Assembly (NCBI RefSeq): GCF_019703515.2
Contig: NC_059393.1
Coordinates: 9,441,501-9,505,500 of the forward strand
Origin: Myxocyprinus asiaticus
Lineage: Eukaryota > Chordata > Actinopteri > Cypriniformes > Catostomidae
DNA: 64,000 bases
Direction of reading: 5' to 3'
Position 1 is the first letter of the stretch; every line of letters begins with the position of its first letter. Below are positions 38,101 to 44,100 of the stretch, piece by piece. The position numbers and the translations under genes were made by a program. The notes beneath the pieces were generated by a model. That model did not search any database and was not told the origin of the DNA. It was given only the letters and a program-made list of their open reading frames with translations.

Positions 38101-41100
38101 TAATTGTATACATATGTTTCAAAATTACAATTAATTTCTTTAGAAGTAAAACTTTTTAATGGGGAAAATTTTCAAAAATATAGCCAAAAGACATAAATAA
38201 TATGCGTGTTAACATGATTTTAGTGTGATAAAATCACTTACTAACCTTTTCTGTCTTTCCAATGTAACCTTTACCAATTTTACTACTTTGTTGCCATGAC
38301 ACCATAATGCCATGAACACTAAAACAACCGTATTGATTATTAGAACTACTATAGTAGTTCTAATAATACATGAGTTTTAACAGAAAAAATTATATAAGTT
38401 ATTTTATAAAATTATAAGCTTCACATTTCTGCCTTTAAACCCTCCAAAAATTGGCTCCATTGACTTTCATTGTAAGTGCCTCATTGGAACCTTGATTTTT
38501 GCTTTTTATTAAAGAAAATAGGGATGTAGAATCATTTTCTGTGGTAATAAATATTATGGCACAAATGCTGTCCCTAATATTCCTTTATTCTTCTAAATGT
38601 GTGTGTGACAGTTGTGATGGACCCACAGGTCTGTAGAAGTAGATATCAGTGTGAAACACATGTGCACTATATGTCATAAATGGCACACCCACTGCCAAGT
38701 GCATGTGTATGAAGCTCTATAACATCATCAAGTCAAACTTGCACACACACACCCTCTAACATACCTGCACACACATATCTCTGTTCCAAAGCCTAGTGAG
38801 CTGCCTATAGTGGCAGCATCATAGGAGCACACCCAATGTGAAAAATGTTCCAAAATGAGGACATCTTAATAATGCAGCCTCCTAAGATCATACATTGCAT
38901 GTATGATCCCAGACTGTATTGCAACAAGCACAGTAAAGATTAACAAAATAAATGTTGATTATACTTATACAAATATACTTATATTTCATTCAAAACTGAA
39001 ACGTACAGATAAAAATATTTAAGTGCAAATTAAAAAGGGGTTATTTTGCTCAATACTTGACATGTGCATCTTTATGCTTGTTACAGTGGCGTAGCCAAGG
39101 GTGGGCCAGGCCCAACCAAATTAGACCCAGGCCCGCCCAGAATATTAGGGATTATTCTTTGACTTCAAATTATATATATACAGTTGTGCTCAAAAGTTTG
39201 CATACCCTTGGGAATTGGTCATATATATACCATTTTTAAAGAAAATATGAGTGAGCAGGCAAAACACATTTATTTTATTTCTTATGGGATTCATATTCAA
39301 CTGTAGGTTATAACAGAATGGCACAATTATAAAACAAAACATGGCAACAAAGAATAAAAATGAAATGACCCCTGTTCAAAAGTCTGCATACCATTAGTTT
39401 TTAATACTATGTATTGCCCCCTTTAGCATCAATGACAGCGTGCAGTCTTTCGTAATAATTGTCTATGAGGCCCCAAATTCTTGCAGGTGGTATAGCTGCC
39501 CATTCGTCTTGGCAAAATGCCTCCAGGTCATGCAAAACTTTGGTTGTCTTGCATGAACCGCACGTTTGAGATCTCCCCAGAGTGGCTCGATGATATTAAG
39601 GTCAGGAGACTGTGATGGCCACTCCAGAACCTTCACCTTTTTCTGCTGTAACCACTGGAGGGTCATCTTGGCCTTGTGCTTAGGGTCATTGTCGTGCTGG
39701 AAGGTCCAAGAGCGTCCCATGCACAGCTTTCATGCAGAAGAATGCAAATTGTCTGCCAGTATCTTCTGATAACATGCTGCATTCATCTTGCCATCAATTT
39801 TCACAAGATTCCCCGTGCCTTTAGAGCTCACACTCCCCCAAAACATCAGTGAGCCACCACCATGCTTCACAGTGGGGATGGTATTCTTTTCACTATAGGC
39901 CCTTTTTGACCCCTCTCCAAACGTAGAACTTATGGTTGTGACCATAAAGCTCTATTTTGGTCTCGTCACTTCAAAGGCGTGTCAAGGTGTTGTCGGGCAT
40001 ATTGTAGCCAGGCTTTTTTGTGGCATTGGCACAGTAAAGGCTTCTTTCTGGCAACTCGACCATGCAGCTCATTTTTGTTCAAGTATCGTCGTATTGTGCT
40101 CCTTGAAACAACCACACCGTCTTTTTCCAGAGCAGCCTGTATTTTTCCTGAGGTTACCTGTGGGTTTTTCTTTGTATCCCGAACAATTCTTCTGGCAGTT
40201 GTGGCTGAAATCTTTCTTGGTCTACCTGACATTGGCTTGGTATCAAGAGATCCCCGAATTTTCCACTTCTTAATAAGTGACTGAATAGTACTGACTGGCA
40301 TTTTCAAGGCTTTGGATATCTTTTTATATCCTTTTCCATCTTTGTAAAATTCCATTACCTTGTTACGCAGGTCTTTTTACAGTTCTTTTCTGCTCCCCAA
40401 GGCTCAGTATCTAGCCTGCTCAGTACATCCAAGTGAGAGCTAACAAACTCACTGACTATATATACAGACACTAATTGCAATTTTAAAAGCCACAGGTGTG
40501 GGAAATTAACCTTTAATTGCCATTTAAACCTGTGTGTGTCACCTTGTGTGTCTGTAACAAGGCCAAACATTCAAGGGTATGTAAACTTTTGATCAGGGCC
40601 ATTTTGGTGATTTCTGTTATCATTATGATTTAAAAAGGAGCCAAACAACTATGTGATAATAAATGGCTTCATATGATCACTATCCTTAAATAAAAGAGTT
40701 TTTTTGCATGATCAGTCATATTTTCAAAATCAATGCCAAAATTTCACAATTTCTGCCAGGGTATGCAAAGTTTTGAGCACAACTGTATGTCATGAATGTC
40801 AAATATTCATTCAAATTTAATGATGGCAAATAAGATGTACACATGACTACTTCTGTTAAATTGGCCAATTGGCACAGTTATCATCCAATGCGATAATCTC
40901 AGAGTGGCCAAATATTGTCAGATTAATCGGGCTGGATGAAATAGCGACCATTTCTAATATTGCAGATAATAATACTGACCCTATAAGAACTCGGATACTA
41001 TTTTAATACACTAGCTAAAGGTGTCCTGTGGTGTTAAATGGCAAGCATCCCTGTGGTTTAGGCAGTGACGCTCTTGGGTTGAGTGATGTGTTTTGGCACT

Positions 41101-44100
41101 GGTGCATTTGGGAAGCCATCCAGTGCACATTAATCCAGGCAACACTAACTGTCTCTCTTTGTTTGAGTTTAATTGAGTTTAAATAAACAAATACAGATTA
41201 AGCATCAAATCCAGTAGAGTTTCTCTTTTATCAGGGGGCCTGAGGGGTTGGACCCTTCACTTTGGGGCCAATATGCAGTCAGGCATGCATCTGAAGGACT
41301 CAATTACTCTATCACACCGCATTTGTTACAGTTTGCTTAAATCTCATCCTCTAAATCAAGACAGTTCAAGTACTTGGTGAATGCAGCTATTGTCAAATAA
41401 GACAAATATATGAAGGAGAGAAACCGTGCCGTACAAAAGGCGTTTATGACGTCAATCAGGTGAAGCTTACCTGCACGCGACCAGACCGCAGACACGCCGC
41501 GAGCGCCGCGAGCACCAGCAGCAGAAGCCGCGAGCGCATCATGCGCACACATCCAATTGTGTCTGTCTGTGTCAAACTCACACACACACACACACACTCT
41601 CTCCGCTGCAGGAAAGTTTATTCCAGAGGGGCTGAGTCACTTTAAACACGCTTCCAGCTGATCCTGATTGATATTTAGCTACGTATCCGAAATATCCAGT
41701 GTGGAAAAAAAAACATTACAGTCACCGATCTGTTAAGAACCGCATTTTAATAATAAACATGATGAAAAGAGACCTCAAATCCCACTCTTCAGTTTAAAAT
41801 ATCAGCTTTAAATATCCAAAAACAAAGTATGTCCAGTGAATTATCGTGTTAATTTTGAAAAACAACCAAAGCGTAATCATTCAATGCTCCCAAGTATGCA
41901 ACTTTCTTCTAGTAAGCAGCTGTATTGCACTCGTGCAGCTGTGCATGCGCTCGCATGTGTTTCTCAGGTGGTTTTATGCCCCACCGCAGCACTCAACCAG
42001 CCTGAAACAACAAAGCACGCCCCCCCCCGTAATCTGATTGGCTCTCCGCCTCTTCAAGGCTGGACTAAAGTTTCCATATAAGGCAAACAATTAGGAATGA
42101 TTCTGCATGGATGAGGGCTGCATATACATGACCAGAGATTCTCAAACTGCTTAAAAAAATGCATAAATAAATGCATAAATCTGATTTCTGAAAGTGTGCA
42201 AGGACTGTTTGAATCCGCCACTTCTCTGTTGTTAAGGAAAATTTGGTAAAAACAAAACAAAACAAAAAAAAAAACAAATTGGCCAAAAACTTGGCCCATC
42301 CATTTTTATTGAGGCCCATCCAAAAGTAATTTTTTGGCTACGCCCTTGGCTTGTTTGAGTATTGCGTCATTAGCTTAGCAACATGCTAACATCCAACTCT
42401 TCTGAAATCAACTGTGAATAGAATGCAGTGATGAATTTACTTCAGTAAAAGTAAAGATATTTTTACTTAAGTACAAGCAGTTCAAGTAAAAATATTGAAG
42501 TAACTGACAATACATGTTTCAAAAGTACAGTACGAGTAAATGACAATGCGTGACAAACCAAGTGTTGTCCAGGGTTCCCTTTTTGATTCAGATTAGTGAA
42601 TCGATTCGTGAATCAATTTGACCAATTCAAAAGAATCAAACTGATCAAAAGACAACTCAAATTATTATTTTGCTTGTGAATCGGGCATCACTATCACCGA
42701 GCCGCATGTAGTTTACATGTTATCTTTTGCTGTGTTCAGTCGCAAAAGTAATGAAAGGGTCTGGAGATATGTATCCGAGTAATGTTTCAGAGTAAATGTA
42801 TTCATTTACTTTTCACAATGTAGTTCACTAGGCAGCTCACTAGTTTTTGAACACACAGCTATAGATATATAGCTATAGATTCCACAGGTTGTATAAATTA
42901 GTGGATAGATAGATGTATATTATAAAATGGTTGAAAAATGAGGGATTTGATTTCAAACTTACTGACAAAGTTGATCAGTGTTTAAATAATCATGCTGGCA
43001 TAGAAAGAGAGATTAAATATTATATGAAAGGATGAAGGATAGATTGCATCACTTAAGCACAAGCACAATAAAATTGATTAGCATTTTATTTTATTTTTCA
43101 AACTAAGTCATTAACTCAATCTACATTTGTTTCTCTAATCTAAGAAGTTAGGGTTGGCATTCATTCTTGAATTCCTGAGTCATGCCAGCAAAAGCAATTA
43201 TTTTATTTTATTTTTTTATGGTTAAGCTCTCAGTGCCGTGACATGCGTAATGCCCCTGAGAGATCCAAAGCCAAATCATCTTATGTGATTCTATCCACAC
43301 GTCGTTACCATCTTGCCTAGATTATTCTTCACTCTAATATAACTTAAACACAATACTTATGATGCACCAATGCAGAGACTACAGTCCCATCAGCCATGAC
43401 CTTTTAAACTCCCAGAAACAGTCCTAAACCAGAACACTGGTTTAAAGGGTACACCTAGAGTTGGCATTTTATATACTTATTTATTTATTGTAGTTTTGTT
43501 GGTGATGCAATGGTGATATTCAAAAGAGGGATTACAGAAAACATCACAAGGGGATTTAGGTCTTAGTCAAGAGTGCATATATGTGTGCATGAGTGCGTGT
43601 GAGTCGCTGGCAATTGATATTCTTGTCATAAAGACCTTACCGCAAAGGTCAGGACGCATACGTGGGAATATCTGTAACCCATATCAAAATGCATGAATGA
43701 TTAAAATGGTTTCTTTCTATTAGTGGATGACCAATATTGGTTTTGCCAGGCAATAACAGATTTTGAGAATAGGGTGGCTGATGGCAGATATACTACTCAT
43801 ATTTATGGGTAGTTGATATTTGCTGAGCATAATTTTTTTTAAATTATTATTATTTAAAAGTAGGGCTGGGTATTAATACAGATTTCCAGATTTGATTTGG
43901 ATTCACAAGCTCCCAATATGATTCTATTCAGATTTTATTAGATTCTGATTCATTGAGTATATTTTAGTTATAATGTCCACTTTGCTAACATATGAATTAA
44001 ATTATCTTTCGGCTAATGTTGTTAATTATACAGGGGACCTTCTAACATGATACATTACAAACATATTAATTTAACAAATTTTATTTTATCATTAGTTTTC

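Follow-up and report, generated by a model that had tools for sequence, protein, structure and literature searches.

How does the start of a gene come to lie a second time within that same gene, packed between the ends of a transposon? The question is raised by a 64-kb stretch of the Myxocyprinus asiaticus genome (C50:9441501-9505500, hereafter the window, to whose positions the coordinates refer unless another contig is named), in which an element at 39084-42348, with the ends CAGTGGCGTAGCC and GGCTACGCCCTTG, carries a copy of the promoter and first exon of pdgfb. The host gene, on the minus strand, is identified as pdgfb from its sequence: the exon at 28882-28601 (minus) encodes a PDGF domain (Pfam PF00341, E 3.5e-17) whose top match among solved structures is PDGF-B (E 1.1e-23), with PDGF-A behind at 8.3e-19. 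Since parental exon 1 lies at 46094-46162 and exon 2 starts at 35558, the element is placed in intron 1 of pdgfb. We propose, with a probability of roughly three in four, that a miniature inverted-repeat transposable element (MITE) resident in this intron broke and was repaired from nearby pdgfb DNA, which would make it a single-copy Pack-TIR (a transposon with terminal inverted repeats, TIRs, and captured DNA between them).

The TIRs of the element are short and begin with CA(G) (CAGTGGCGTAGCCAAG and CAAGGGCGTAGCCAAA in the window), as they do across its family; short inverted ends that start in this way are typical of hAT transposons. Own-genome searches covered 345 contigs (2.34 Gb) and returned 1030 first-look candidates for the 95-bp left end and 1302 for the right end, the best 40 of which were scored in each case. 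The family sample, a small one, consists of 30 loci from the left-end candidates, the window's own included. At 21 of the 29 other loci the right end follows in the same orientation, while eight are without a right end in the stretch examined, and 17 of the 21 two-ended copies are 245-285 bp long. The 8-bp flanks of these 21 agree at all eight positions in nine copies, at seven in seven copies, at six in one and at four or fewer in four. As the ends co-occur at other loci with 8-bp duplications, they are identified as those of one short, repetitive, non-autonomous MITE of hAT type, an assignment made from the ends and the duplication length. In plain copies the left and right parts meet at a central (TA)n, followed in the nearest relatives by approximately AAAAC(A/T)GTTTAAAAAATGC. 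The first consensus was built from 16 copies, leaving out L053 (extrapolated right end) and L043, L048, L049 and L051 (length); L043, L051 and L053 were left out of the later comparison with the nearest relatives. No hAT transposase was recognised by eye in the stop-free frames of the eight loci without a right end, no family search having been made. An initial annotation of this DNA had described the inverted ends, the 8-bp duplication with one mismatch and a non-autonomous hAT-type element in pdgfb intron 1 whose ends the parental copy lacks, all of which we recovered; it had also named, as a refuting condition, ends that never occur together elsewhere, and at 21 of the 29 other loci they do occur together.

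The 1.36-kb copy of the pdgfb promoter and signal-peptide exon reported in that annotation is likewise present, with its limits refined (Table 1). It lies in direct orientation 4.6 kb from its source and differs from it by 31 mismatches over 1,358 aligned positions; the parental segment is without a MITE of this family. The cargo search gave 77 first-look candidates, and among the best 40, which were scored, the only long matches are the copy, the parent and, as the next place after the 97% parent, C49:25613465-25614661 at 81%. The other 38 matches measure 54-121 bp and all fall within query bases 52-181, a portion which, to judge from these matches, the parental sequence owes to an old interspersed repeat. 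Many short genomic matches, at 74-86%, fall on about 100-130 bp around window 40840-40968 and on the parental counterpart.

C49 supplies the comparison locus. Fifty kilobases of it (L059-L063) align to the window, mostly in the same order and including exon 2, and we take this locus as the homeologous, second pdgfb locus of the genome, whose presence suggests a tetraploid fish. The parental segment occurs there once, with its flanks, and window positions 38731-39087 and 42349-42517 join at an empty site with one 8-bp target, GCTTGATA, of the kind that the initial annotation had proposed to look for. No other member of the MITE family was found in the 64-kb window or in the 50 kb of the homeolog. 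Because the homeolog has a single cargo segment, an empty site and no MITE, parent and copy are assigned the right way round, and the MITE, the pdgfb copy and a further, Tc1-like element all arrived after the split of the two pdgfb loci.

This Tc1-like element, absent from the earlier description of 39084-42348, has 28-bp inverted ends with one mismatch and is repetitive in the genome; the centre of the MITE is thus opened by two insertions, the Tc1-like element and the pdgfb copy. The left junction runs from (TA)n through the eight bases TGTCATGA into ATGTCAAAT of the cargo. At the right junction the parent reads ..CTCAAACTGTTACTTG.., the MITE relative L074 reads ..ATAAAACTGTTTAAAAAATGC.. and the window reads ..CTCAAACTGCTTAAAAAAATGC.., so that the microhomology amounts to 8 bp if the ancestral MITE read as L074 does. 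When junctions of MITE and locus were paired at random 200,000 times, 8 bp were reached in 0.02% of the draws and 5 bp in 0.7%. Both breakpoints lie at the central (TA)n, with a loss, judged by eye, of about 0-3 MITE bases.

Table 1. Positions in the window of the loaded MITE, its parts and the related pdgfb features.
Feature	Position	Strand	Remarks
pdgfb exon 2	35433..35558	-	GNPLPQ..; acceptor CAG|GGG, phase 0; 5' border clear, 3' approximate; homeolog exon 2 also read
Left target-site duplication GCTTGTTA	39076..39083		single copy at the homeolog empty site
Left MITE part up to central (TA)n	39084..39180	+	fits consensus 1-98 at 93.9%
Tc1/mariner-like element, 1605 bp	39181..40785		TA target duplication 39179-39180 / 40786-40787
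Left-junction filler TGTCATGA	40788..40795	+	partly repeats the cargo start; three-way alignment, by eye
Copy of pdgfb promoter, exon 1 and start of intron 1	40796..42151	+ (gene on minus)	97.1% identity to 45419-46767
Stretch identical in copy and parent, 411 bp	40834..41244		parent 45457-45867; probable gene-conversion tract
Copied exon 1, coding part, 24 codons	41471..41542	-	open signal-peptide-like frame, intact GT donor, phase 0
Right-junction microhomology, read as AAACTGCT in the window	42144..42151	+	AAACTGTT in the parent (46760-46767) and in MITE relative L074
Right MITE part, terminus GGCTACGCCCTTG	42152..42348	+	42164-42348 fits consensus 107-270 at 81.7%
Right target-site duplication GCTTGTTT	42349..42356		matches the left one at 7/8 positions
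Parental segment: pdgfb promoter, exon 1 and start of intron 1	45419..46767	-	from alignment to the copy; colinear with the homeolog
Parental exon 1, coding part, 23 codons	46094-46162	-	GTAAGC directly after; phase 0

We propose the following course of events. A hAT MITE of about 270 bp would have inserted into intron 1 of pdgfb, as the 8-bp duplication and the empty homeologous site suggest, and its AT-rich centre would later have broken or stalled a replication fork. The junctions point to a broken end, most likely the right MITE end, that primed on DNA of the same gene through the microhomology AAAC(T)GTT; about 1.35 kb, spanning the promoter, the first exon and the beginning of intron 1, would then have been copied leftward, and about eight filler bases would have linked the released end to the left MITE half. 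The Tc1-like element, whose nesting is visible, would subsequently have inserted at the left junction, within the TA tract, and a later gene conversion with the parent may have homogenised about 0.4 kb. The end product would be a single-copy, in-place Pack-TIR and a second promoter and signal-peptide exon nearer exon 2. We prefer capture in place because the loaded element is single-copy, its source is only 4.6 kb off and in direct orientation, the break is in the AT-rich centre, little of the MITE is lost and the microhomology is 4-8 bp; that no other MITE of the family lies in the window or in the homeologous 50 kb fits a MITE that was resident before it broke and was filled.

The MITE family itself indicates the AT-rich centre as one recurrent site of rearrangement. 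By eye, the central (TA)n is rearranged at four of the 29 other loci (L031, L033, L047 and L048): L047 has a Tc1-like insertion at the MITE centre, with an apparent Tc1-type transposase frame, and the insert in the centre of L048 reads as a solo long terminal repeat with a TATAT duplication. At L031 and L033 the central (TA)n is much expanded and the right MITE half is lost, L031 then continuing into left-half sequence in inverted orientation. The initial annotation had proposed to see whether other copies of these ends carry other cargo; three expanded copies were inspected (L043, L048 and L051), and no other gene capture is shown in the small sample of 30 loci out of 1030 first-look candidates. 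The insert of L051 reads, by eye, as a nested element with inverted ends of its own. L043 (on C12) has an extra 0.5 kb or so inside the right MITE part and a 7/8 duplication; the extra sequence may be a nested element or a further capture.

The divergence of the parts bears on the later history of the locus. In a three-way alignment of 40788-42149 the 32 substitutions between copy and parent divide into 12 copy-derived, 9 parent-derived and 11 unpolarised, polarity being doubtful in the first 60 bases, where the homeolog aligns poorly. When the 31 substitutions behind the filler were placed at random 20,000 times, 0.03% of the trials left a gap as long as the 411-bp identical stretch. The parent agrees with the homeolog at 84% of positions in this stretch (325 of 386) versus 87% to its right (690 of 797), so the stretch is not specially conserved, and gene conversion between copy and parent is the simplest reading of the identity. 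Right of 41245 copy and parent differ by 26 substitutions in about 898 bp (about 2.9%), which puts the copy branch at about 1.6% (10 copy-derived changes plus about half of 8 unpolarised ones over these 898 bp). The Tc1-like element has 23 private changes in 1402 positions (1.6%), a count that excludes the badly aligned relative L004 (141 private changes; with it, 23 of 1571). The MITE diverges at 9 of 211 positions (4.3%) from the general consensus, and in about 230 bp compared by eye to the nearest subfamily no more than about 4-5 changes are private to it. We had taken the 9 of 211 to mean that the MITE is older than its cargo and dropped this reading, as most of the changes are shared with relatives (L048, L065 and L074-L076). 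Adjoining the left junction, five substitutions relative to the parent fall within 37 bp (40797-40833), four of them A in the copy and C in the parent; this cluster may be an old difference, or may have arisen by error-prone synthesis where the template was switched.

Several of these data weigh against capture in place. The order of MITE first and cargo later is our reading of a site whose only comparison locus, the homeolog, is without the MITE. The age estimates of the copy, the Tc1-like element and the MITE overlap, so that dating gives no order, and the sequence of events comes from the nesting only. Only with L074 does the microhomology come to 8 bp; with the AAACAGTT of L036 and L075 it would shrink to 4 bp, L065 differs further at the right junction, and L076 is without the stretch. 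Finally, five of the 29 loci (L034, L038, L039, L045 and L054) lose the MITE farther right than its centre, two (L043 and L051) have inserts farther right, and L049 is without the middle; the loci were sampled by the left end, which places copies broken in the left part outside the sample. The AT-rich centre is, on this evidence, a frequent and not the sole weak place of the MITE.

The initial annotation had proposed instead that the element captured the start of pdgfb and then inserted 4.6 kb away. In such a scheme, a MITE elsewhere would have acquired the segment by template switching, and the loaded element would have transposed into intron 1 of pdgfb, either in a process resembling the one termed FoSTeST or as a short-hop Pack-hAT. 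One 8-bp duplication does bound the whole unit, with the homeolog empty, and the terminal branch of the MITE measured against the nearest subfamily is close in length to the copy branch, which allows a simultaneous arrival. Against this, the cargo-bearing element is single-copy among the best 40 of the 77 candidates, a target 4.6 kb from the source demands a second coincidence, and neither the window nor the homeologous 50 kb contains a donor MITE of the family; multicopy Pack-TIRs, moreover, lie far from their parents in the account of Tan et al. (2021, PMC8277862). We regard prior capture followed by transposition as unlikely and as clearly less probable than capture in place.

A different starting point would be the Tc1-like element itself, if it was already in place and the copying was seeded by a break at its right edge, such as a failed excision might leave. 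The filler and the cargo do start immediately behind its right TA, and its private divergence of 1.6% equals the estimate for the copy; the element is complete, however, with TA on both sides, and later insertion into one of the many TAs of the tract explains its position with no extra event, so we give this order very little credence. That the locus, known here from the assembly alone, is an artefact of assembly or haplotype merging, as the mismatch in the 8-bp duplication might hint, is barely credible given 31 mismatches between copy and parent, a clean and colinear empty site in the homeolog, and the same ends with 8-bp duplications elsewhere in the genome. A simple tandem duplication was discarded since the copy is enclosed by MITE halves and an 8-bp duplication and the homeologous site is empty, and retroposition since the copy includes promoter and intron sequence.

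Capture in place would belong to a process already known in animals. The initial annotation was aware of no described case, which does not hold for the kind: across 100 animal genomes Tan et al. (PMC8277862) counted 370 Pack-TIRs, of which 208 involve hAT elements and 8 are from zebrafish. In the same study, 160 of 281 unique Pack-TIRs lie at most 15 kb from their parent and multicopy ones are always distal; breakpoints are skewed to the inside, with a median loss of 4.6% of the element; 190 of 281 show microhomology, at a single end or at both; an outgroup has the plain element in 91 of 97 primate cases; and single-copy Pack-TIRs arise by transposition-independent gap filling. Their definition asks for 100-5000 bp between ends with at least 10 terminal bp each, and here both ends are complete around a cargo of 1.36 kb, or 2.97 kb with the Tc1-like insert. 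It also asks for a unique parent at more than 90% with no transposable element of the same kind in the flanking 100 bp; the parent here is at 97% and has no family MITE, in a screen that covered this MITE family. For the ratio between internal and parental length, set there at 80-120%, the cargo alone gives 1356/1349, which is within, and the value falls outside if the nested Tc1-like element is counted, in which case that pipeline might drop this locus.

Four features of the gap-filling subtype recur at this locus, namely a source in cis, a single copy (among the best 40 of 77), internal breakpoints and microhomology of 4-8 bp depending on the ancestral MITE base. Like the single-copy animal Pack-TIRs described in PMC8277862, the element is a non-autonomous hAT in a single copy, with cargo from less than 5 kb away on the same chromosome, internal breakpoints, little element loss, microhomology and a parent without element ends. 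It differs from them in a cargo of 1.36 kb versus a median of 224 bp, and from the animal Pack-TIRs presented there in carrying the promoter and signal-peptide exon of the host gene itself, in sense and splice-compatible, and in having a second transposon in the junction; the comparison here is, besides, with the homeolog in place of an outgroup with a plain MITE. The one self-gene case that the source mentions is an H2BC15 intronic piece used in the 3' untranslated region of its own gene. FoSTeST Pack-TIRs such as Ssk-FB4 in Drosophila share template switching within the element, yet those in PMC8277862 are multicopy and distal, unlike the single-copy, local pdgfb case. Plant Pack-MULEs also hold gene fragments between transposon ends, but they belong to another superfamily, with 9-10-bp duplications as against 8 bp here, and no transposition of the loaded element is seen in our case. 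A capture of fish pdgfb was not found in the open-access literature, a search that did not extend to the supplementary case list of PMC8277862. What is unusual here is the size and completeness of the cargo, the identity of host and source gene, and the splice-compatible layout.

Because of this layout we considered whether the copy functions. Its first exon has a splice donor in phase with exon 2, and, by eye, the promoter region has kept a CCATATAAGG and an ATTGG motif. Two bases of the copied exon, 41475 and 41541, are A on the plus strand of the copy and G in the parent. The base responsible for the double Met of the copied exon (41541) is common to the homeolog and altered in the parent. 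The copy-derived changes show no evident avoidance of promoter or exon and no sign of selection for a promoter role, no formal test having been made. The loaded MITE might act as a working second pdgfb promoter: transcripts would start near 42.1 kb and join an alternative signal-peptide first exon in frame to exon 2, and gene conversion would hold the copy close to the parent; we consider this doubtful. If it were true, repair inside an intronic transposon of pdgfb would have provided the gene with a duplicate of its promoter. The locus is in any case an unusually complete transposon-associated duplication, in which one can still make out where the cargo came from, where the two breaks lie, what the empty site looks like and some of what happened afterwards, and the presence of a promoter and a splice-ready signal-peptide exon in the same gene bears on whether repair events can double a promoter.

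Two further observations concern the introns of pdgfb. Window 37775-38168 matches the homeolog at 17751-18144 (83%), out of order relative to the surrounding colinear blocks, and may represent 0.4 kb of intron 1 that has moved or is repeated. On the minus strand at 32309-33310, inside a pdgfb intron, open stretches resemble, by eye, part of the endonuclease region of LINE-type elements.

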